A DNA stretch of 21,621 nt from a virus: IMG/VR virus record IMGVR_UViG_3300045440_000047, positions 1 to 21,621 of that record, one strand, 5' to 3'. The position numbers and the translations under genes are program-made. Under the pieces are notes generated by a model. That model was not told the origin of the DNA. It was given only the letters and a program-made list of their open reading frames with translations, and searched no databases. Of the stretch, positions 2 through 12,039 are shown in pieces (the stretch's first letter is position 1; every line of letters begins with the position of its first letter).

Positions 2-1321
2 GGGTATTCCGGCGTTGTGGTGGGGGATCGATATTCGATTTTCGAGGTTGGAAGCACATCTGAATTGAGTTTTTACGTTTCGTGGGCCGATGGCACCTAT
101 TCGATTGTGATGGGCAAGCCGCAGTCGTTGGGTGCTGGTTTCATGCGTCAGCCTGGAGCACCGTGGGGGTTCTATTTTCAGCGGCGGTTGTGGGTTCCGT
201 TTTACTATTCTCAGAGCGGGACAGCACCGGTTGTGTTCGCTGATCGCGGGATTCGTGATGAGATTGCGGTGAGTGACATCTTGGACGAGAGCACCTACGA
301 CCAGATCTACAACCAGTTTCGGATTACAGGTGGGACCGCTGATTTTGTGGTGGGTTTTCAAGGTTTCTATGACGATGCGATGGTTGTTTTCAACCGCAAC
401 AGCATCCACATACTAACACAGACGCAGGGATCGGTGGATGACGTGGTGGTTCGCGAGTTGACGAGGGAGGTCGGGTGTTTGGCTCGGAAGTCGATCATGA
501 TGAAAGGGAACACGGTGGTGTTTTTGAGCGATGCCGGCGTGTATGCGCTCGAGTTTGCCGACCAATACAACCTGCGGGGGACTGACGAACCGTTATCGAA
601 GAACATCCAGCCGTATATTGACCGGATCAACCGGGATCGTGCGGACAAGTCGGTGGGGATCTATCATGACAACCGCTATTTTTTGGCGGTTCCGCTGGAT
701 TCGGTCGAGGGTGCGGGTGATGCTCGTGGAAACAACGCGATTCTGATCTTCAATTTCCTCAATAAAGCGTGGGAGTCGGTAGACACTTACAGCGAGAACG
801 ATTTTCTGATTAAAAACTTCATCAGGGCGAGTGCGGGGGTGCGCGACGACCTGTATGCGGTTACGACTAACGGCGGACTACACCAGATTGATGCTGTTGA
901 CAGCGCATACGACCGTTTGAGCGTGACCAACTCGTCCGATGACGTGGTGGTGGTGCCGATTGTTTCGAAGTTGACAAGTCGGGGGTATGATTTCGGGGAT
1001 TTGGAGCGCAAACGGTTCACGGTTGCGCAGGTCCAGATGCAGAACCTTGCCGGGGATACCGGAGAGTTTGACGTTTCGTTCAGTTCGGAAGATCCCGATG
1101 CAGCTACATCACTGGGGACGACCACAGATTTTCTTGGTGGGGAGATTCTTTCACCGAGTGATGCCAACGAGGCCGAAACAGCATCGATCCGGTGCCGGTT
1201 GGGCGGATTTCGTGGATTCACAGGCACCATGATTTTAACACGCACGGCAGGCAGTCCAAAAATTCATTCTTTACGGGTTTCAGGCACTACAACCAACAGA
1301 CAAGTGATCTCACAGAAATAA
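2..1321 (+). CDS. Tail nozzle / DNA-stabilisation protein, beta-propeller-like (5' partial)
   Basis: The frame is open to the left edge, so the gene is cut. A GTG at 17 could start a 434-aa product, but nothing marks it as the true start, and related proteins are usually longer. The visible part is beta-rich, with motifs I associate with podoviral nozzle/stabilisation proteins (T7 gp12-like, P22 gp10-like): RRLWVPFYYS near the left end, VVFNRNSIHIL (about residues 123-133 from the GTG), a turn reading VVFLSDAGVYAL, and IFNFLNKAWESVDTY. Such proteins close the bottom of the portal channel and carry the fibres. It is followed after 4 bases by a fibre-like gene and then by three candidate ejection proteins, as in T7-type late regions. 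The coding strand is strikingly G/T-rich compared with later genes (421-480 has 29 G and 8 C). The family assignment is pattern recognition; a receptor-binding beta-propeller is the alternative. Confidence 0.65.
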   Translation, partial: GYSGVVVGDRYSIFEVGSTSELSFYVSWADGTYSIVMGKPQSLGAGFMRQPGAPWGFYFQRRLWVPFYYSQSGTAPVVFADRGIRDEIAVSDILDESTYDQIYNQFRITGGTADFVVGFQGFYDDAMVVFNRNSIHILTQTQGSVDDVVVRELTREVGCLARKSIMMKGNTVVFLSDAGVYALEFADQYNLRGTDEPLSKNIQPYIDRINRDRADKSVGIYHDNRYFLAVPLDSVEGAGDARGNNAILIFNFLNKAWESVDTYSENDFLIKNFIRASAGVRDDLYAVTTNGGLHQIDAVDSAYDRLSVTNSSDDVVVVPIVSKLTSRGYDFGDLERKRFTVAQVQMQNLAGDTGEFDVSFSSEDPDAATSLGTTTDFLGGEILSPSDANEAETASIRCRLGGFRGFTGTMILTRTAGSPKIHSLRVSGTTTNRQVISQK

Positions 1322-1325
1322 ATTT

Positions 1326-1856
1326 ATGGCAGGAGTAATCGAAACCACACGCACATTCGCAAGCACTGAGTTGGTCACGTCGATCAAGCTCAACGAAATC
1401 ATCAGCGAGACAGCTTTCACCGGTGACGCGATCACCGGAAGCACGTTGCAGGTCTCGACCGGCAAGTTGAAGGTCTCGACCGGCGGGATCACCAGCAACG
1501 AGTTGGCATCGTCATCGGTGACTCCTGCAAAACTGTCAGGAGCACAGTCCGGTAGCGCGCCGGTGTTTGGCATTCGGGCATATGGGTCTTTCGATGGAAG
1601 CGTCGATCCGGTTACCCTTGGGAACTTGGGGAATATCGCTACGATTGCTTTTATCAGCACCGGGAATTGGCTTGTTACGTTCACCACACCGATGGCAAAC
1701 ACTTTATACACCGTTGTCGTCAATTGTATCTACGGAGCGACCAATGCGGTGAACGCGAGCGCAGGCACAAAAACAACGTCGTCGTTTATCATTACAACCA
1801 ATTCAAACTTGGGTGTATTCAATTCCACATCCATCAATTTTGTCGTCATCACATAA
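1326..1856 (+). CDS. Small tail fibre-like protein
   Basis: A 176-aa protein. The N-terminal 85 residues are low-complexity and beta-helix- or stalk-like, with the phrase VSTG occurring twice (KLKVSTGG) and the stretch ITSNELASSSVTPAKL typical of fibre shafts. From about residue 80 there is a compact domain: the motif RAYGSFDG, then IAFISTGNWLVTFTTPM and NTLYTVVVN. This matches the general pattern of a C-terminal tip domain seen on many phage tail fibres (RAW..F.G, then G.w.v.F.t.m....Y.v). The start ATG lies 4 bases after the nozzle stop, with A-rich sequence and no Shine-Dalgarno in front, so translation is probably coupled to the nozzle. It could be an accessory fibre or a nozzle-attached tip. 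Fibre-like identity is fairly secure; attachment partner and receptor are unknown. Confidence 0.6.
   Translation: MAGVIETTRTFASTELVTSIKLNEIISETAFTGDAITGSTLQVSTGKLKVSTGGITSNELASSSVTPAKLSGAQSGSAPVFGIRAYGSFDGSVDPVTLGNLGNIATIAFISTGNWLVTFTTPMANTLYTVVVNCIYGATNAVNASAGTKTTSSFIITTNSNLGVFNSTSINFVVIT
1451..1484 (+). repeat. Two copies of a 13-base repeat encoding VSTG
   Basis: The 13-base string ggtctcgaccggc occurs at 1451-1463 and again, identically, at 1472-1484, a period of 21 bases (7 codons). It encodes the repeated phrase VSTGKLK / VSTGGIT in the shaft of the small fibre protein. The identity at DNA level suggests a recent internal duplication. Confidence 0.8.
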
Positions 1857-1877
1857 CCATTCCAACCATTCATCACC

Positions 1878-2930
1878 ATGGGACTATTCTCAAAACCAAA
1901 AAAAATCAAAGCGCCGAAAGCGGACTACGCTGCTGACCTGACGAAATACGTCAATGCGATGAACTCCGCGCAAGGGTCTATCTTGAGCGCAGAGAAACAA
2001 TACCGGCCCGAGTATCAGGCATTGAACCTGCAAGACATGAACGGGTTCTTGAATGGAACCGGCGGGCAGCAGGGTTTGATCGGTCAGACGGGTGCCGCGC
2101 AGTCGGCAGCGCAGGACCAGATAGAGTCGATGCGCGGCCGCGAGCTTGGCAACATGAATGCCAACACCGGGATGGTGCGTGGTTTGTTGGGAAACTTGTC
2201 ACCGGAAGGTGCTGCCCGAGTCAACCAAGCGCAGTCGGCAGCGCAGATGGCACAGGGTCTTGCCGGATCCTATCAGGGCGCAAGCCAGGGCTACATCGAT
2301 GCTGCGGACACCATGGGGATGGAGGCATTCAACCGGCGCGGGTATCTGTCGCAGGAGCAGATGCGGGCAAGCGACCAGCAGGCCCGCGAGGCCGCTGCGG
2401 CATCCGGCAGGCTGGGTGACAACGCGAGCATTGCCTCGCAGATTTTGAACCGTGAGAACGCGATGGCAGGCCGGCGGCAGGAAGCGATGGGTGCCACGCA
2501 GAATGCGATGTCCCAGTTCAACGCGCAGCAGCAGATGATGGGGAGCTTCCGAGGCGAGGCGCAGAATGCCAATACGAATGCTTACAGCATGGCTGATTCG
2601 TTCTACACGCAGCCCGGGTTGCAGTTGTTGGGCATGAACCCGGCGAGCATGGGGATGGGTCAGAACTACATGCAGTCTGGCATGGGGATGATCGGGCAAG
2701 GTAATCCGAAACTTTACGACACTGGAGCGGCACTCAACCTGGGTGCGGCGGAACGCCAGAACCTGCTAGGCGCACAAGCGGCGAACGCGCAGGCGCAATC
2801 ATCTTACAGTTCGGGTCTGCTTGGCGGAATCGGCAAATTGGTCGGAAGTGCGGCTGGAAGCATCTTTGGTCCGGCAGGTACTGCGGTCGGAGCAAAGCTC
2901 GGCAGCACGGTAGGCAGTTGGATGAAATAA
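1878..2930 (+). CDS. Putative internal virion / DNA-ejection protein (gp14 position)
   Basis: A 350-aa protein rich in Ala, Gln, Met, Asn and Gly. It starts with a basic segment (MGLFSKPKKIKAPKA), continues with long Gln/Ala-rich predicted helices (residues about 15-290, including two QSAAQ units), and ends in a Gly/Ala-rich hydrophobic tail (about residues 313-350, GLLGGIGKLVGSAAGSIFGP and onward) that could insert into or perforate a membrane. This composition and its place as the first and smallest of three genes between nozzle and terminase resemble T7 gp14, which forms the outer-membrane pore for DNA ejection. No family is recognised from sequence alone. The spacer to the preceding gene (1857-1877) is pyrimidine-rich and lacks a Shine-Dalgarno. 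The functional assignment is inference from order and composition. Confidence 0.5.
   Translation: MGLFSKPKKIKAPKADYAADLTKYVNAMNSAQGSILSAEKQYRPEYQALNLQDMNGFLNGTGGQQGLIGQTGAAQSAAQDQIESMRGRELGNMNANTGMVRGLLGNLSPEGAARVNQAQSAAQMAQGLAGSYQGASQGYIDAADTMGMEAFNRRGYLSQEQMRASDQQAREAAAASGRLGDNASIASQILNRENAMAGRRQEAMGATQNAMSQFNAQQQMMGSFRGEAQNANTNAYSMADSFYTQPGLQLLGMNPASMGMGQNYMQSGMGMIGQGNPKLYDTGAALNLGAAERQNLLGAQAANAQAQSSYSSGLLGGIGKLVGSAAGSIFGPAGTAVGAKLGSTVGSWMK
2097..2246 (+). repeat. 18-base direct repeat encoding AQSAAQ
   Basis: The 18-base string gcgcagtcggcagcgcag is present identically at 2097-2114 and 2229-2246, in the same reading frame of the 350-aa protein, giving AQSAAQ twice. The 132-base period (44 codons) suggests a duplicated helical segment, though the flanks are not alike. 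Confidence 0.75.
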
Positions 2931-2946
2931 TTTACTACACACAAAC

Positions 2947-4509
2947 ATGGCAATGATGGGCAGTTCAATCGACCCTCGGATGTTCGTTAACGACTATTCG
3001 GGATTCACCAATGCGGCAGCGATTCAAGCTGCCGGCATGCTTGATTTCGGCAATCAGATCGGAGGCGCGATCAAGGACTACCAGAAAGAGCAGAAGGACT
3101 CCAAGAACATGCTCAAGGCGGGAGAGGCGCAGATCAAGGCCGCTGCGGCACTGTTCCCGTCGCAGGCACCGATGTTCGAAAGCCTCGCCAACGACCTTCG
3201 CAACGAGGACACCCCGCTATCTGAGAGGGCAGCGATTGCAAGCCAGGTAGCCGACCTGATTTCCATGAGTGTGGGTGAGAAACGCTATCAGACCGAACGT
3301 GGCTACAAGGAACGGGATCAGGTGTTGGCTGAATCTCAGAACACTCGTCAGAACACACTTTTCAACCAGCAATCCGCCGCTACCCAGCTTGCGATTCAAG
3401 ACGCACAGGCAAAGAGAGATGCAGAACGATTCAACGCACCGGCAAACCTTGCTGCGGCAATAAAGAAGGCAAGTCAGATTTCAGATTTCCCCATGCCATA
3501 CAAAGGCACGGATCTCGAAGCGGCGTTTGACCAAACGCCAGAAGTGCAGAATGCGATGACTGCCTTGATCACTTCGCTACTGCCCGAAAAGCAAAAGTGG
3601 GAACTCAAGAACCTTCCGGCAACGATTAACGGGCAACCTGGTGAGATCCCTGCTTTGTTTAATGATAGTGGAAACATTGTTCCACTTGGTATGAACGACG
3701 GGATGGTCCTTCCTCCGAAGCAAGGAGGCACGATTGCACCTCCACCAGAAGACATCGCGACCAACGAGGGAGCAGTGCTGCCCGCCAATGAGTCGAAACT
3801 TGTGGGTGAGGGAACATCGACAGACGGCAAGCCAATAGAAATTTGGAACTATCAGGGACAGAATTACACCGCACCGAAGAAAGCCGGCCCGGCAAGCACT
3901 GGAGTCGATATCCAACTCGGTCGGAACATGGTTTCACCCAAACAAACCCCAGGAGAGGTGTTGCAAATCACCCGTGAGGGTGACATGGACAAATCCTTGA
4001 GCGGCATCCGTGACGAGGGACTTGTCCAGGCGCAGACAATCGGCGCGATGGAGGACGCAAGCAAGTTGCTGGATTCAGTTGAAACCGGATTCACCAAGGA
4101 CACTCAAATGAGAGTGAAGCGTGCGTTTGGCATGGACGTGAAGGATGCGGAGCAGTTGCAAGTCATCGTCGGCAAGTTCGTGATGGACAACATCGCACTT
4201 ACAAAGGGTGCGATTTCCGAAAAGGAAATGGCATACTTCAAAGACGAGCTTTCGCCGGGCATGGGCAAGACCACGGAGGGCAACAAGAAGATCATCGAGT
4301 TCAAGATCAAATACGCAAAGCGGGCAAAGGAAATCGGGGAGTTCATTACCGCAGCGCAGGCAGCGGGCAAGTCTCCGTTTGAAATCAAGTCTGCGGTTGA
4401 CTCATACCTTGAGAGCAACACGCTTGTCGGTGGTGGGAAAGGGGCAGCACAAGTAGACCCTAACACGGAATCAAGCAATCGGATTCGCTCAAAGAAAGTC
4501 CAACAATAA
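2947..4509 (+). CDS. Putative internal virion / DNA-ejection protein (gp15 position)
   Basis: A 520-aa, largely helical, charged protein. Residues about 35-170 are Gln/Ala/Lys-rich and probably coiled coil. Residues about 245-290 form a Pro/Gly-rich linker (contains LPPKQGG and APPPE). The C-terminal half (about 340-495) is helical and contains TKGAISEKEM (about 419-428) followed by a TTEGN phrase (about 443-447), a pattern I associate with C-terminal regions of phage internal or ejection proteins. The spacer before it is 16 bases (tttactacacacaaac) with no Shine-Dalgarno. The stop codon overlaps the next start in a TAATG, so translation of the giant downstream protein is probably coupled. 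Position and helical nature suggest a periplasm-spanning ejection component analogous to T7 gp15. Enzymatic motifs are not evident. Function is inferred. Confidence 0.5.
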   Translation: MAMMGSSIDPRMFVNDYSGFTNAAAIQAAGMLDFGNQIGGAIKDYQKEQKDSKNMLKAGEAQIKAAAALFPSQAPMFESLANDLRNEDTPLSERAAIASQVADLISMSVGEKRYQTERGYKERDQVLAESQNTRQNTLFNQQSAATQLAIQDAQAKRDAERFNAPANLAAAIKKASQISDFPMPYKGTDLEAAFDQTPEVQNAMTALITSLLPEKQKWELKNLPATINGQPGEIPALFNDSGNIVPLGMNDGMVLPPKQGGTIAPPPEDIATNEGAVLPANESKLVGEGTSTDGKPIEIWNYQGQNYTAPKKAGPASTGVDIQLGRNMVSPKQTPGEVLQITREGDMDKSLSGIRDEGLVQAQTIGAMEDASKLLDSVETGFTKDTQMRVKRAFGMDVKDAEQLQVIVGKFVMDNIALTKGAISEKEMAYFKDELSPGMGKTTEGNKKIIEFKIKYAKRAKEIGEFITAAQAAGKSPFEIKSAVDSYLESNTLVGGGKGAAQVDPNTESSNRIRSKKVQQ

Positions 4510-7500
4510 TGCCATCCGATCCTAGGGAATATGCAGTTGCAGTTAGGGATGGGGTTTCGACGTTCTTTGGACCGTCAGGAACCGAGGTTCCAACTCCTCC
4601 GATGGAGACGTTCACAGCACAGGCAGCGTCGGACGAGGATTTGATTGCCCGAGGTCTGTTGGACGAGAACCTCAATGCAACGCCAAGAGGAGAGTTGTTC
4701 CTCGATTTGACTGATGCCGGAATCTTCGATGAAAACGGCGTGATTACTCAGAAGGGTCGGGATTACTCGGTCGCAGAGAGGGACATCGGCAAGCCCGAGA
4801 ACTTCGATGCGTTCAAAACGCAGTGGGATGAGGGGATCATCCGGCCCGAAACAGGACCGATGGATGTGGCAAAAGGAGTGTTAAAGTTTGCGGGGGAGGT
4901 CGTTTCTGGATTACCCGAACGTCTTCAACAAGAATTTCTGGGGACCGCATACAACATGACGACATGGGGTGGATTCATTGGTCGTGATGACAACCGACCA
5001 CAATGGCTGAAGAATGAAATGACGGCAACTGGTCTTGGATGGGCAGACGGGTTAGGAGAAAGCTACGGGCAGTTGGCATCGATGGCAGACGTGGGACGTG
5101 CATGGGCAAAAGACGACATCCTCAAAAATCGCAAGTTTTTTCCCGGTGATGTTGGCGATGAAAAAGCGAAAGAAGCGGAAAGGTCACTGTATCAAGCCAG
5201 ACAACGGCAGTGGCAACTTCAGAAAAACATCCAAGATCTTGAAGCTGGTGAGATTGCTGAAAATGTCCTTGGTCTGGATAATGCCATCCAGCAAGCCGAA
5301 GTGACGAAGAAGGCACTCGGTAAGGAAAAGTTCGACGAGCTGTATCAAGGGGGAAGTTCCGCTTCCCAAATATTTACCGATGCATCCAATGTCGTCCCTG
5401 GGCTTTTCGCAGTCAAAGCTGCCACAAAGGCACCGGTCGCGACTCGAGCCATCCTTCTTGCCCAGCAGAGGATCGGGCGCACCGCAGCGATGGACATGAA
5501 GATCGCCAGCATGCAGACCGCACTTGCCGCTGGCGAGACGCTGCTCAAGAAGGAAGCAGTCGCAGGACCACGGTGGGCGACACTCGCGACCAACCTGACT
5601 GCGCGAGGTGCGCTCGATGATGCAGCGATTGCAGCGGGCAAGGCATCACGACTGGCGGATGATGCCGCCCGGGTTCGCACGACCCTGCCGGCACTCACCG
5701 ACGAGTTACAGAAAGCCATGGCGCAGCGTGCAAGCCTCGCCACCCGCATCCCCGAGGCAGTGGCGCAGAAGGCAGTCCAGACGATGGAACTGGGCCGCGC
5801 AGCACGCGCACTGCCCGCCAACGTGATGGGTGCTACCTTGGAGAGAGTCGGCAACGGACTGACCCGCACCGACAAGGCGATCACAGGGTTTTTGAAAGAG
5901 CGCGGACTCGATCAACTTTATACTGGCGCGGTTGGAGCCGCAGGCATGCTCGGCCTGGCAGGTAACCCAGTGCTGGGTGCGGTCGGGATCGGTGCTGGCG
6001 TTCTCAAGACCGGCAAGATGCTCGAGCAGGCGGGGAAGATGTTCCGCTACGTCGGCAAGGAGATGGCACAGGCGAGGGGGCAGATACCGTTCTGGCAACG
6101 AGTAGCGGTCCACACCGCACCCGGCACGGCAAACCGTGCTCTGGCGCACACGTTCGGCATGTTTGAGCTTGGTGGCGCCACCACCGACATCCTTCGCCGC
6201 ACCGGTCGAGGAGTGTTGGCGGCAGCACCGGTCGATCTGGCTTTCGAGTGGCTTTCAGACGGTGCCGACATGCGCAAGCAGACGGTGTATCAAGCATTCG
6301 CTGAGTCGATGGTCCTCGGTGGGTCATTCGCCGCAGCAGGAGGGATCACGATGGGGACCAAGGCGCGCATGCGTGAGCTTGGCTTGAACGACGAGATCAA
6401 CTTCCGCCAGGGACTGGTCGACCAAAAGCAGAAGGCACTGTTCGAGGCGATCCCGACAGAGTCCCGGCGCGCGGTGGCAACTTACTCGATTGCGAACCCG
6501 ACACTCAATTTCAATTTCACCAACAAGGGTGCGAGTCACTACGACCCACCGACCAACACGGCGACGATCAATGTGGCATCGAGCAATCCGCTCAAACCAC
6601 TGCTTGGGCATGAGGTCCTGCACCACACGATCATCAAGAACGGCATGGAAAGCGGCATTGCCGCCCTTTTCCTTGGGGACACCGAGACCAACACCACCGG
6701 AGGTCTGCTGCGCGCCAAGGACGGGTCTCTTGACCCCAACTTCGCGGAGTTCGTCGAGACCTACAACCGGCGGATGGACAATGCCGGCGCGCCCAGGCCG
6801 AAGCTCAAGGATCTGGCAGTCGAGTATTTCATCGAGCAGCATGCTGACCACTACTCAGACATGGCGGAAAGTGGTGCCTTGGGTGCCACAGCATCGAGAG
6901 GTGCTGCGCGCCGGTGGATGGGTGGTGTGATGGACACCCTGCTCCCTCGAGGCGCGGTCTTGAAAGACCTGCACTTCAAGATGGGTGGCGCGGTGGATGC
7001 GAACGGTGCCATGGTCATGGGCAACGGACTGCTGGCAGACGGCATCCGCCAAACACCTGCGGCACAGAAGATGTTCCGCGACATGAACCGACGCAGTGCC
7101 GGTCGTGCGCCTGGGCAGTTCGAGCCACTCGGCACCGACAGCAAGGACGCAGGACCGACCGTCCAACTCGACCCAGAGAACGGCATCGACATCGCATTGA
7201 TGCACCCGTTGGTGGTCGTCGACGAGAACGGTGTGCCGGTGATGCAGAATGGCAAGCCGGTGTTCATCGACAAGGCGACCGACATGCTGCGTGGCGCGGC
7301 AGGTGTCACCGTCATGGAGAAACTCCGTGAGAACCAGGCTGCGGGCAAACGCTACGCACCCGGGGAGATGCACTTGGACGACAATGGCGAGGTGCAGGGT
7401 CGGTGGTTGTCTCCAGAGGTGCTGCGCGATGTGATTTCGAAGAACAAGTTCAACTCCGAGCAGGCGCAGGTCATGCGTTCTGTCAATGCGGCGATCAAGA

Positions 7501-9797
7501 CTGGCGACGGTAGCCGCATGGTCGTGATCAACTTCCCAGCGACAAAGAAGCTGAAGAACGGCAAGGTGGTCTACGCCACGCAGGCGGCAACCATCCGCGA
7601 CATCGTGCCAGTCGGGTTATCGATCACCAAGGACGGCAACCTGCTCATCGGTCTGATGAGCGTGACCAAGCTGCATGAGAACATCACGAAGCGGGCCGGC
7701 AGCAAGCGGGGCAAGAGACTCTACGGTGGCAACACCGACCAGATCCTGACCGACGTGCGTGCCATGATGGACTACCACAAGCAGGGGGTCGACAGTCTGG
7801 AGTTTTTCGCCAAGAAGTATGGTGCGGTCGAGGCTAACGAGCGGAAGCTTTTCATCAACACGATGTTCGGGCTGCTCAACAAAACAGAGCAGGCGGTGCT
7901 CAATCCGCTCTTATTGGAGGACGGTGTGAAGAGCCAGGACAACGTGTTCCGCACCTACCGGGTGGACAGGGTGAGCAAGGCGGTGCCGATGGCACCCGAC
8001 CAGCACCAGCCGATGCCGTTCTCCTACGAGGCGGCGAGTGCGGTCAAGATGCCTGAGATGCCGGAAGGTCCGAGGATGATGCCGGAGACTGCAGACATGG
8101 ATCCAGAACGTGCTCGTCAGATAAAAACACAGGAGGAACTGCTCGCCCCAGAATTGGATGACGGTGCCGAGTCGATCCCCATCGAGAATCCAGATGATGC
8201 GACGATCCCCGGCACCATCGCGCCAGATTCACCGCTCAGAAGTCTCCCCACCACCGGCACCCCAATCCGATGGGATCAGAGCAACGAAACATCCAAGCGG
8301 TATCTTCCTGAGTCGGATCGGAATGCTTATCAGACGATGACCCCGGAACTCCTCGCACAGATTGAGGCAGAAACGCCGACGCTGGCAGCCATTCACATCG
8401 ACCGGATGAAGGTCGGTGAATACATGGGAGTGGACCTCCAGGGCGGGATGTTCTATCCGACGATCAAGGAGAATCTCGCCAATGGTGTTGCATGGGCATT
8501 CAACTCACCGGGTGTCGCCCGCTCCGTGGCCCGCCGCGCAGCGCAGAACGGTGGCTACGTCAAACTGATCTTGATGCAGGAAGGCAACGTCGTTGGCAAC
8601 AAGACGTTCGGCAACATCTGGTTCAACAATCTCAACGAAAACATCAAGGCCCGCAAAATCTCCAAGGGCATGGCGCTGACCCAGTTGAACGTGGCCCGCC
8701 GTGTCGTCTATAAGAAAATCGAAGGAAAAGACGCCAAGCGGAACCCGTGGGTCGAGTCACATTCCAAACAATGGAAGACGCTGGAAGAAGCGAGGGATGC
8801 CATCCTCTCCATGCCGCAGATCGAGCGGGGAGCCACCTACTTTCAGAAGTCAAAGACCGTCACAAAAGCGGATGGGGAGAAAATTTCCTATGGCGCACTG
8901 CTGTCCCAAAAGATGGCGGCTTCGGGTTTTCCGGACGCAATCAAGATTGTCGGTGACATCGAGGAACCCGCATTCAAAGGAGTCCCTACAGGCGCTGCTG
9001 TTGCGATCCTGAGATTTGATCCGTTGTCAGACGATGCCAAGATCCAGACCGCCCAAGAGGCCGGCGTGCCAGAGCATATGTCGTACGGTTATGTGCTCAA
9101 AGGGCAACCCGTCGCCAAGCTCAGTCACTACCAGGTAGTCGATGAAACATTCCCGAAAACAAAGGGGCAGATCATGACGCAGCAGCACACCGACTTCCCG
9201 ATCAAGGATTCCGTGCCATTTAAAGGTGCGAGCAAAGGGGAGATTGATTTCGCAACCGCCGACATCCGCTACCTGCCCGAGCCGCTTGACGGCGGTGGTA
9301 AGAATGGCGGCATGGTTACTCCTAAGATCAACACGCCCAAGGAAATAAAACTCATGGAGCAGGCTCTTGCTGCGCCAAGGGATATTCCAAAAGACCTGCG
9401 AGAAGCATGGGAGATTGGAAAAAGGGTGTCTCACCTTTCAGACTCAGAGGCAGTTTATAGCGGAATGGTTCCAGAGTGGGTGTTTAATTTGGGTCACGAC
9501 GTTACGGAATTTTATGAGGCAGGAAGACGTGGTGAGAATCCCGAATACGTTGTCGGGTGGCGACGGGGAGGCATCCCAGAACGTGGACGAAGCGTGAATT
9601 GGGCTGATAACAACGCGGAACCAGGGGTTTCTTTGGCATATGCTCACAATAGGACAGACATGGAGTTAAACGCCATGACAATGCTTGGAGTTTCTCACAG
9701 AAAAAAGACATTTGTGGATGGGTGGGCATTTCCAAAGTCAAGATGGGGGAGCGATGGTGAAATTGTAACCCTCGGCACCAAAGAATTGAAACCATGA
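4509..9797 (+). CDS. Giant polyvalent ejection protein with HExxH metallopeptidase domain
   Basis: A 1762-aa multidomain protein, last and largest of the three candidate ejection proteins (T7 gp16 position), so it probably enters the cell with the DNA. Regions seen: an acidic N-terminal part (1-120); a helical Ala-rich part (about 225-470); a hydrophobic Gly/Ala segment (about 474-505, possible membrane insertion); a zinc-peptidase motif HEVLH at residues 701-705 in the setting LLGHEVLHHTI, with E772/E776 in VEYFIEQHADH as possible third ligands; and a region about 985-1180 of unknown type. A first RYLPE junction (1264-1268) follows, then a globular module (about 1275-1580), a second RYLPE junction (1587-1591), and a C-terminal module (about 1605-1762) with VGWRRGGIPERGRS and EPGVSLAY. 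This architecture fits phage 'polyvalent' proteins. A transglycosylase signature was not recognised. Base composition changes along the gene, pointing to module exchange. The peptidase motif is clear; substrate unknown. Confidence 0.75.
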   Translation: MPSDPREYAVAVRDGVSTFFGPSGTEVPTPPMETFTAQAASDEDLIARGLLDENLNATPRGELFLDLTDAGIFDENGVITQKGRDYSVAERDIGKPENFDAFKTQWDEGIIRPETGPMDVAKGVLKFAGEVVSGLPERLQQEFLGTAYNMTTWGGFIGRDDNRPQWLKNEMTATGLGWADGLGESYGQLASMADVGRAWAKDDILKNRKFFPGDVGDEKAKEAERSLYQARQRQWQLQKNIQDLEAGEIAENVLGLDNAIQQAEVTKKALGKEKFDELYQGGSSASQIFTDASNVVPGLFAVKAATKAPVATRAILLAQQRIGRTAAMDMKIASMQTALAAGETLLKKEAVAGPRWATLATNLTARGALDDAAIAAGKASRLADDAARVRTTLPALTDELQKAMAQRASLATRIPEAVAQKAVQTMELGRAARALPANVMGATLERVGNGLTRTDKAITGFLKERGLDQLYTGAVGAAGMLGLAGNPVLGAVGIGAGVLKTGKMLEQAGKMFRYVGKEMAQARGQIPFWQRVAVHTAPGTANRALAHTFGMFELGGATTDILRRTGRGVLAAAPVDLAFEWLSDGADMRKQTVYQAFAESMVLGGSFAAAGGITMGTKARMRELGLNDEINFRQGLVDQKQKALFEAIPTESRRAVATYSIANPTLNFNFTNKGASHYDPPTNTATINVASSNPLKPLLGHEVLHHTIIKNGMESGIAALFLGDTETNTTGGLLRAKDGSLDPNFAEFVETYNRRMDNAGAPRPKLKDLAVEYFIEQHADHYSDMAESGALGATASRGAARRWMGGVMDTLLPRGAVLKDLHFKMGGAVDANGAMVMGNGLLADGIRQTPAAQKMFRDMNRRSAGRAPGQFEPLGTDSKDAGPTVQLDPENGIDIALMHPLVVVDENGVPVMQNGKPVFIDKATDMLRGAAGVTVMEKLRENQAAGKRYAPGEMHLDDNGEVQGRWLSPEVLRDVISKNKFNSEQAQVMRSVNAAIKTGDGSRMVVINFPATKKLKNGKVVYATQAATIRDIVPVGLSITKDGNLLIGLMSVTKLHENITKRAGSKRGKRLYGGNTDQILTDVRAMMDYHKQGVDSLEFFAKKYGAVEANERKLFINTMFGLLNKTEQAVLNPLLLEDGVKSQDNVFRTYRVDRVSKAVPMAPDQHQPMPFSYEAASAVKMPEMPEGPRMMPETADMDPERARQIKTQEELLAPELDDGAESIPIENPDDATIPGTIAPDSPLRSLPTTGTPIRWDQSNETSKRYLPESDRNAYQTMTPELLAQIEAETPTLAAIHIDRMKVGEYMGVDLQGGMFYPTIKENLANGVAWAFNSPGVARSVARRAAQNGGYVKLILMQEGNVVGNKTFGNIWFNNLNENIKARKISKGMALTQLNVARRVVYKKIEGKDAKRNPWVESHSKQWKTLEEARDAILSMPQIERGATYFQKSKTVTKADGEKISYGALLSQKMAASGFPDAIKIVGDIEEPAFKGVPTGAAVAILRFDPLSDDAKIQTAQEAGVPEHMSYGYVLKGQPVAKLSHYQVVDETFPKTKGQIMTQQHTDFPIKDSVPFKGASKGEIDFATADIRYLPEPLDGGGKNGGMVTPKINTPKEIKLMEQALAAPRDIPKDLREAWEIGKRVSHLSDSEAVYSGMVPEWVFNLGHDVTEFYEAGRRGENPEYVVGWRRGGIPERGRSVNWADNNAEPGVSLAYAHNRTDMELNAMTMLGVSHRKKTFVDGWAFPKSRWGSDGEIVTLGTKELKP

Positions 9798-10444
9798 TCA
9801 CTCCACTGAAAAAACCTAGCAGACCAAAGAAGCGCAAGGTGAGCACACCGCTGGACGAGATCATGGCAGTGAAACAGCATGAGACTCCCGTTCCGTTCTC
9901 CAACGACGAATGCCCACCTGAGTGGTATGAGGAAGTGCGGCAACGGGTGATCGAGCAGGGTGGAGGACCATCCAGCACTGAGTTTGTGAAACCAAAGAAG
10001 TGTGCCATCGCACTTTGGAGGTTAGCGCAGGGAGTTGCCATGTGGCGGATCGCTGATGAAACCGGATTAGATTTAAAAACCGTCGTGCGCTTGAGATGGA
10101 GACACACCGACACGCTTGACACCCGGCGCAAGGAGTTTTCCCGAAGCTATGCCCAGGTTGCGGATGTTTTCACCGATCTCCTGATGGAGAAAGCGCAACA
10201 ACTTGGCAGCGACCCAGAGTCGCTTTCAAAACTCTCGCCAGAAAAATTAGCTTTAACGGTCGGCATCATGACCGACAAAGCAGCGCAACTCTCAGGCATG
10301 GCGGGAGTCATCATCGAACATAGGAAGGGGCCATCCATCGAAGATGCATCGCAAGCCATCACAGCGGCCCGCGCACGGATCGCAGAGAAGATGCGCGCCC
10401 AAGCAATCGAAGCGGAAGTCATCACCGAAGAACCTGAAGCATGA
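9794..10444 (+). CDS. Terminase small subunit
   Basis: A 216-aa protein directly before and overlapping the large terminase. The N-terminus is basic (PLKKPSRPKKRKV). Residues about 70-105 form a helix-turn-helix candidate (ALWRLAQGVAMWRIADETGL followed by DLKTVVRLRWRH), as expected for a pac/cos-recognising small terminase. The rest is helical and would form the oligomeric ring, and the acidic C-terminus (ITEEPEA) could contact the large subunit. It overlaps the upstream giant gene and the downstream terminase gene by 4 bases each (ATGA), so all three are probably translationally coupled. In the virion assembly pathway it would select the genome concatemer and regulate the large subunit's ATPase. 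Assignment rests on position plus the HTH; sequence family not identified further. Confidence 0.8.
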   Translation: MITPLKKPSRPKKRKVSTPLDEIMAVKQHETPVPFSNDECPPEWYEEVRQRVIEQGGGPSSTEFVKPKKCAIALWRLAQGVAMWRIADETGLDLKTVVRLRWRHTDTLDTRRKEFSRSYAQVADVFTDLLMEKAQQLGSDPESLSKLSPEKLALTVGIMTDKAAQLSGMAGVIIEHRKGPSIEDASQAITAARARIAEKMRAQAIEAEVITEEPEA

Positions 10445-12039
10445 AGTGGCGCAGTCACCAGATCCTGACCCCACCCACCGACGAGGAACTCGTCGTGATG
10501 GACGAGGCGGACTTGGTCGAGCTGCACCGGATCTTCCATGAGGCAATTGAGAACGCGGAGAAAGACCCGTTCCGCTACGGATTTCGTCTGCCGCACTGGC
10601 AGAAGGCGGAAGAGGCAATGAAGGATGTCTCGGAGGTGTTAGCGTTGGGTGGAAATCGCAGCGGTAAGACGAGGTGGGGTGCATACGCAGTGGTGCGTGC
10701 TGCCATCGAAAACGACAACAGTGAAATCTTCTGCTTCGCGCAAACATCGGAAGTTTCCATCCGCCAGCAGCAAAGCGCAGTGTGGGAAGCACTGCCGGCG
10801 GAAATGCGGACCAAGCAGATGACTGCGGGAGCTTACATTTCCTACACCAAGAAGAACGGATTCACGGACTCATCCCTGATTCTTCCCAACGGGTCACAGA
10901 TCATCTTCAAGACCTACTCGCAATACTCCAACAACCCGACCATCCTCGAAGGTGCCGAGCTTGGAAGCAAGAACCCCAAGTGGCACAACATCGGTGTGTG
11001 GCTCGACGAGTATCTGCTAGGACCGGAACTTATTTCAACACTCCGCTTCCGCCTCGCCACCCGAGAATCAAAAATGTTAGTAACCTTCACTCCCGTGTCG
11101 GGATACACCGAGATAATAAAAGAGTACCTCGAAGGCGCGACCACCATCGAGACGAAGCCCGCCGAGCTTCTCAACGGCGAACTGGTCCCCTACGTCCAGC
11201 GGAGCAAGCAGCGCAACGCCAGCGTCCACTACTTCCACTCGGAGGACAATCCCTTCGGAGGTTATCATCGCATCCGCGAGACGCTGATCGGTCGTCCCCG
11301 CGAGGAAATCTTGATCCGTGCCTACGGGGTGCCGGTCAAGAGTCACGCGACCAAGTTCCCCAAATTCAATACAGCGATCAATGTCGTCACTCCAGAAAGC
11401 ATCCCAACGGAGAACATCACCCGGTATTGCATCATCGATCCTGCCGGCAGCAAGAATTGGTTCATGGCATGGGTGGCAGTCGATGCATCCAGCACGTTCT
11501 GGGTCTACCGTGAATGGCCCGGGGTCGACGTGGGCGACTGGGCCGAGTGGAAGAACGGCAAGTGGCAACCTGGCGAGGGCGCCAAGGGGCAGGGATACGG
11601 CATCAAGGACTACGTCGATCTCATCCGCGACATGGAGGCGGGCGAGGATATCTACGAGAGACTGATCGACCCCAGACTCGGTGCGGCGAAGTATCAGAGC
11701 AGCGACGGTGCATCCTCGATCATCGAGGACTTGGCCGAACACGGGATTGACTGCATCGCAGCACCTGGCCTCGACATCGACGACGGCTTGCAGGCACTCG
11801 TCAGCAAGATGGCATGGGATAACAGCAAGGAAATGGACTCGGTCAATCGTCCTCACTTCTACATCTGCGACGAGTGCGAGAACATCATCCGAGCACTGGC
11901 GGAATACACCGGCGACGGTGGACTCAAGGAGGCATGGAAGGATCCCATCGACGTGATCCGCTACGCTGCCATTGCCGACCTCGATCACGTCGACCACAAA
12001 AGAGTTTTAGCGACCCGCCAAGGGTCTGGAGGATACTAA
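10441..12039 (+). CDS. terL: Terminase large subunit (packaging ATPase and nuclease)
   Basis: A 532-aa motor protein, normal length for the family. The Walker A motif is GGNRSGKT at residues 70-77, preceded by EVLALGG. The Walker B motif is IGVWLDE, ending at D189-E190. The C-terminal RNase H-like nuclease has candidate metal-binding acids at D333 (CIIDPAGSK), D410 (RLIDPRLG) and D501/D504 (KDPIDVIRYA). It pumps DNA through the portal into the prohead and cuts the concatemer. The ATGA overlap with the small subunit and the portal gene 300 bases downstream fit a packaging module. A GGAGG occurs near its 3' end (12028-12032), but it is 19 bases from the next ATG, too far for an ordinary Shine-Dalgarno. 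Identification is firm. Confidence 0.95.
   Translation: MKWRSHQILTPPTDEELVVMDEADLVELHRIFHEAIENAEKDPFRYGFRLPHWQKAEEAMKDVSEVLALGGNRSGKTRWGAYAVVRAAIENDNSEIFCFAQTSEVSIRQQQSAVWEALPAEMRTKQMTAGAYISYTKKNGFTDSSLILPNGSQIIFKTYSQYSNNPTILEGAELGSKNPKWHNIGVWLDEYLLGPELISTLRFRLATRESKMLVTFTPVSGYTEIIKEYLEGATTIETKPAELLNGELVPYVQRSKQRNASVHYFHSEDNPFGGYHRIRETLIGRPREEILIRAYGVPVKSHATKFPKFNTAINVVTPESIPTENITRYCIIDPAGSKNWFMAWVAVDASSTFWVYREWPGVDVGDWAEWKNGKWQPGEGAKGQGYGIKDYVDLIRDMEAGEDIYERLIDPRLGAAKYQSSDGASSIIEDLAEHGIDCIAAPGLDIDDGLQALVSKMAWDNSKEMDSVNRPHFYICDECENIIRALAEYTGDGGLKEAWKDPIDVIRYAAIADLDHVDHKRVLATRQGSGGY

Follow-up and report, generated by a model that had tools for sequence, protein, structure and literature searches.

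Three consecutive genes of a podovirus fragment from IMG/VR probably encode the capsid-packaged DNA-ejection (pilot) proteins of a group of lytic podoviruses, the largest of them being built as a polyvalent protein. The window analysed here, the whole fragment of 21.6 kb (21,621 nucleotides), belongs to a podovirus with a major capsid protein of the SU10 type (PF17236, 5e-51). A preliminary description of this DNA had placed three open reading frames of 350, 520 and 1762 aa between a nozzle candidate and the terminase genes, and all three were found there on the plus strand: protein A (350 aa; 1878..2930), a putative outer-membrane or first ejection protein, protein B (520 aa; 2947..4509), a putative periplasmic-tunnel ejection protein, and protein C (1762 aa; 4509..9797), a putative giant third ejection protein of the polyvalent type. 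An ejectosome-like function of this cassette has good support, whereas the sequence comparisons do not support an ejectosome of the T7 type.

The upstream neighbour of the cassette encodes a nozzle or head-closure (Hc3) protein (2..1321, plus strand) and is 5'-truncated at the contig edge. Its product matched the Hc3 PHROG at 4.8e-5, and its profile matched the 'head closure Hc3' protein of phage C75C1 (OQ984151) at 100% and the 'phage stabilization protein' of MW202718 at 98.6%. Profile comparison with P22 gp10 and T7 gp12 gave no match, so that the nozzle assignment, already suspected in the preliminary description, holds through the annotated homologues of C75C1 and MW202718 and not through P22 or T7. 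Between the nozzle gene and A lies the gene of a small fibre-like protein of 176 aa (1326..1856, plus strand; PHROG tail fiber, 0.0011), and a fibre-like gene directly after the nozzle gene is also found in most relatives. A and B are separated by a 16-base gap, B and C overlap in TAATG, and C overlaps TerS by 4 bases. TerS (9794-10444, plus strand), assigned by position and conserved neighbourhood, and TerL (10441-12039, plus strand; Pfam Terminase_6N 1e-10, PHROG 9e-20) form the downstream boundary. No clear Shine-Dalgarno sequence was seen in the window upstream of 1878, 2947, 4509, 9794 or 10441. The TerL ORFs of five relatives (L019, L024, L032, L052 and L056) are 827-847 aa long, their Walker A motif being interrupted by an intein-like insertion with the junctions GGNR^C...HN or KN^SGKT; the TerL of the window is uninterrupted.

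IMG/VR searches with C, the portal protein, A and B gathered about 190 related loci, 86 of which have distinct A proteins, distinctness being judged on one 100-residue stretch of A. Many of these 86 loci are still closely related and the locus counts are therefore not independent trials. The gene order of the 86 loci is conserved, running from nozzle and fibre through A, B and the third gene to TerS, TerL and portal, and the cassette genes all lie on the same strand. B follows A, with an optional extra gene in between, in 80/81 cases, TerS comes directly after the third slot in 53/54, and the third slot is never empty among the loci that cover it. The extra gene of L019 (7355-8161) encodes a 267-aa protein with a PAPS-reductase domain (PF01507, 2.2e-9); genes of this type lie inside the cassette in 22 of the 86 loci (L019 and 21 others), and the window is without one. 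On the contig of L061, TerL-TerS-C occurs a second time in inverted orientation (165-5237, minus strand), possibly an assembly chimera. Capsid, portal and terminase are alike across the group (71-80% identity), and within it the wall-cutting enzyme of B, the third protein as a whole and the effector modules of C are each exchanged separately. Searches of 50,697 phage records with A, B, C and the C tail (tblastn) returned no match.

Relatives of A are encoded at at least 435 IMG/VR loci, and a search of 85k bacterial and archaeal genomes returned none, which is consistent with a lytic phage. The alignment of 62 A sequences holds invariant residues, and the AF2 model built on it is all-helical, although weak (pLDDT 68, pTM 0.35). 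Foldseek of this model against the PDB gave nothing but generic long-helix matches, none below E 0.1, and a PDB sequence search with the A profile gave nothing relevant. The Gly-rich tail reported before is real: residues 301-350 (2778..2927, plus strand) form a hydrophobic stretch with 56% Gly, Ala or Ser and 3 charged residues, which matches a Gly-zipper weakly (0.044), and the hydropathy peak of A (1.19 at residue 313) is comparable to those of P22 gp7 and T7 gp14. MW202718 has an A-like gene of 246 aa in the same place (hhalign 84%). In C75C1 (L099), an A-like stretch is located near the C-terminus of the gene 1 product (residues 2478-2620 of 2769; probability 42%, E 3e-4), suggesting at the sequence level that A may be fused there to a giant N-terminal part. 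Three A proteins (L006:3410-4447, L032:647-1714 and L041:1-753) continue after the Gly-rich tail with an S74-chaperone-like segment, which would be odd for an internal protein. PHROG matches that would class A as a tail-fibre protein were traced to the S74-like tail of these three members and not to A itself, and this classification was dropped.

The N-terminal part of B, about 130 aa, is conserved (123 ORFs) and the remainder is variable. This remainder is a phage lysozyme in L161 (5.6e-20) and a glucosaminidase in L186 (4.9e-8), and in L041, L018 and L002 B shows a sub-threshold CHAP/NlpC-like domain (3e-4). Altogether, 12 of the 46 complete B proteins bear a hydrolase, and its occurrence is unrelated to the family of the third protein. 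None was detected by Pfam and PHROG scans in the window's own B, and the same scans yielded nothing useful for B or C of the window. Many phages of the group have B split into two genes.

The third slot is filled by C in 31 loci, by a second family, C2, in 27 and by a third, C3, in 8; HMM and profile comparisons detected no cross-similarity among the three. CDS0003 of C75C1 (1343 aa) is a member of C3 (100%, E 9e-84). Within C, residues 26-1260 form a core that is about 53% identical among relatives, followed by a variable C-terminus. The shortest forms (1136-1197 aa) end near residue 1150, keeping the helical N-terminal half and lacking the variable modules. The core includes a Gly/Ala-rich hydrophobic segment at residues 481-499 (5949..6005, plus strand; KD19 1.59). 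The AF2 model of C is weak (pLDDT 55, pTM 0.31), and Foldseek of the core against the PDB found long-helix matches alone (such as Vipp1, chemoreceptors and axonemal proteins), none below E 0.1, which we treated as meaningless. PDB sequence searches with profiles of C, of its metallopeptidase region and of the first C-terminal module were equally without relevant results. In BFVD, fold matches of C included a 1488-aa phage protein at 1e-10 and, weakly (1.8e-3), a protein whose name refers to a 'large polyvalent protein associated domain'.

The metallopeptidase motif noticed earlier in C is confirmed by its conservation. C of the window has a single HExxH, at residues 701-705 (nt 6609-6623), in a zincin-like domain (6384..6938, plus strand) that also contains Glu 772 (nt 6822-6824). 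The motif is present in 26/26 complete C proteins, and thus not by chance, as against 0/24 and 0/8 in the alternative families (0/32 together). H701, E702, H705 and E772 are invariant in 13 diverse C members down to 27% identity, the Glu lying about 67 residues past the motif. In zincins, the HExxH helix is placed after a group of strands. In the AF2 model of this region, strands precede the HExxH helix and C-terminal helices come after it, at moderate confidence (block pLDDT mostly 60-84). A comparison of the zincin with the PDB gave no fold or sequence match, and C matched neither an LPD nor an MPTase domain of Pfam, whose models miss the zincin core. We also considered that the B hydrolase and the C zincin might substitute for each other, and rejected this since the census shows no such pattern.

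Longer forms of C, including that of the window, bear extra C-terminal modules past the core. In L018, C carries an ART-PolyVal domain (PF18760, 3.3e-20) and the zincin in the same polypeptide; two enzyme domains together were seen in this protein, and the window's C combines the zincin with two modules without a named activity. Module 1 (residues 1264-1586; 8298..9266, plus strand) starts with RYLPE and is mobile: it is 71-79% identical in other C proteins, compared with about 53% for their cores, and recurs in the unrelated locus L113, within a giant protein, at 53-56% identity. Module 2 (residues 1587-1762; 9267..9794, plus strand) also starts with RYLPE, and no relative of it was found. 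Throughout the family, module ends are marked by the peptide R[FY][ML]PE, which occurs 28 times in 16 C tails as against 0.02 expected from shuffling, and the same upstream module end is joined to differing downstream modules. Motifs of this type are encoded by 22 different DNA sequences in 51 occurrences; hence it is the peptide that is maintained and not a fixed DNA string, and the idea of a DNA recombination site was rejected for this reason. L113 (2-7743) belongs to another lineage with a triad of 354, 576 and 1645 aa. Its giant third protein is outside the C family, yet it has an HExxH, module 1 and FMPE at a module end.

The preliminary description had set this cassette beside the ejection proteins of T7. 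Median hydropathy of the slots is high-low-high (A 1.33, B 0.83, C/C2/C3 1.61/1.38/1.33) and resembles that of T7 gp14/15/16 (1.31/0.84/1.44) and P22 gp7/20/16 (1.31/0.79/1.18), with TerL and portal as controls at 1.01 and 1.02; yet no clear transmembrane helix is present in the window proteins. Profile comparison of A, B and C with the ejection proteins of T7, P22, SU10, LUZ19 and N4 gave no significant match, hhalign probabilities against T7 gp14-16 did not exceed about 2%, and the structural comparison yielded the weak models and generic helical matches given above. Missing homology is expected here, as gp15-type proteins are for the most part recognised from size and synteny (Swanson et al., PMC8954989). 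The conserved anatomy is that of a podovirus ejection cassette and supports the idea of a divergent DNA-ejection machine; the specific tie to T7 is not supported.

As in T7 gp14-gp15-gp16, which measure 196, 747 and 1318 aa as had been stated, three co-oriented genes of rising size lie between nozzle and terminase, hydropathy runs high-low-high, and the cassette includes a cell-wall enzyme, here in relatives. Apart from the lack of detectable homology, the cell-wall enzyme of the present group, if there is one, resides in the second protein, the third protein bears effector modules along with a zincin, and the fibre gene precedes the cassette, whereas it follows in T7. A hydrolase can move between gp16 and gp15 and is found in the gp15-type protein of K1E/K1-5 (PMC8954989). 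The P22 order gp10-26-14-7-20-16 and the N4 order gp52-51-50 fit the cassette as well as that of T7. With P22 gp7-gp20-gp16 it shares the place directly after the nozzle and needle genes, the rising size and the Gly-rich tail of the smallest protein; on the other hand, the third P22 protein is far smaller (609 aa), has no zincin and is not followed by the terminase genes. N4 gp52-gp51-gp50 likewise rise in size (150-644-3500 aa), and gp50 (vRNAP, 3500 aa) is a giant injected third protein with one HExxH (residue 2228). However, no RNA polymerase was detected in C, and profile comparison with gp50 gave a probability of 0.2% for C and 1.5% for the zincin alone.

In its build, C resembles the polyvalent proteins (PMC5512222), which are giant multidomain proteins encoded near virion genes, are predicted to be injected and combine a zincin with an ADP-ribosyltransferase (PF18760) and other modules, as does C of L018. 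The recurring R[FY][ML]PE joints and the location in the third ejection-gene slot are apparently specific to the present group. The zincins of polyvalent proteins have been proposed to process the polypeptide in the head or after injection, or to act on host proteins (Iyer et al. 2017, PMC5512222). Phage C75C1, on which no paper was found in the literature, has a homologous portal (53%), capsid and nozzle and a member of C3 in CDS0003, but no zincin protein of the C type.

By analogy with T7, P22 and N4, we infer that the three proteins are packed inside the capsid and exit ahead of the DNA. The Gly-zipper-like tail of A would probably enter the outer membrane. B would probably form or line a periplasmic conduit and, in many relatives, supply the peptidoglycan hydrolase that opens the wall. 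C would come last: its N-terminal half, helical and Gly/Ala-rich, would complete the conduit, and its tail would bring effectors into the cell. Self-processing of C, whether before injection or afterwards, is the most likely role of the zincin, although it may act on host proteins; the R[FY][ML]PE joints are candidate processing sites in C. That the zincin cuts C, and perhaps C alone, at these very joints, so that effectors are released singly and exchanged as peptide-bounded cassettes, is a speculative extension of this scheme. If true, ejected C would be a string of effectors.

Among the other explanations, it is somewhat unlikely that A, B and C are fast-diverged orthologues of P22 gp7, gp20 and gp16. 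The gene order after the nozzle is the same as in P22, loss of sequence signal is normal for such proteins (PMC8954989), C2 aligns with P22 gp16 from C-terminus to C-terminus (probability 22%, E 0.001) and a short stretch of the A tail with gp7 (probability 3%). However, none of these matches is significant, and neither the nozzle protein, compared with gp10, nor C has a P22 match. A slightly less probable reading confines the conduit to A and B and regards C as an injected passenger effector outside the channel. Three dissimilar families in one slot and the effector modules on C would fit a passenger, and T4 Alt illustrates that packaged effectors need not belong to the channel (PMC5512222). 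Nevertheless, the slot is never empty in the loci that cover it, the shortest forms of C retain the helical N-terminal half without the variable modules, and the third protein of N4 does both jobs.

The zincin could also be a murein endopeptidase in place of the T7 gp16 transglycosylase. This counterpart role, the weakest step of the preliminary description, is distinctly improbable, although a cassette of this kind usually needs a hydrolase and the window's B has no detectable one. C retains the zincin next to B proteins that bear a glucosaminidase or CHAP/NlpC domain, phages with C2 or C3 lack it whatever their B carries, and the closest context of the zincin is that of the polyvalent proteins. 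Since it occurs with or without a hydrolase in B and sits with polyvalent-type effector modules, processing of C is the likelier role than replacement of the T7 cell-wall enzyme. Least probable is that the three proteins belong to the exterior of the virion, as parts of the tail or of the adsorption apparatus, as might be suspected from the adjoining nozzle and fibre genes and from the S74-chaperone-like ends of A in L006, L032 and L041 that match tail-fibre PHROGs. Most A proteins are without such an end, the all-helical AF2 model of A has no beta-structured fibre domain, and the combination of an ADP-ribosyltransferase with a zincin fits injected rather than external proteins. We favour packaged pilot proteins with a polyvalent C.

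Few parts of podoviruses diverge as fast as the ejection proteins, whose counterparts in other phages are recognised chiefly from size and position. With its many natural variants, its separately exchanged parts and its similar capsid, portal and terminase, the present group allows one to ask which components of an ejection machine are structural and which are cargo. The independent exchange of wall enzyme, third protein and effector modules and the zincin-linked peptide joints go beyond what the preliminary description had noticed. In conclusion, polyvalent phage proteins have long been proposed to process themselves, and the R[FY][ML]PE joints linked to the zincin provide a concrete candidate for such processing.
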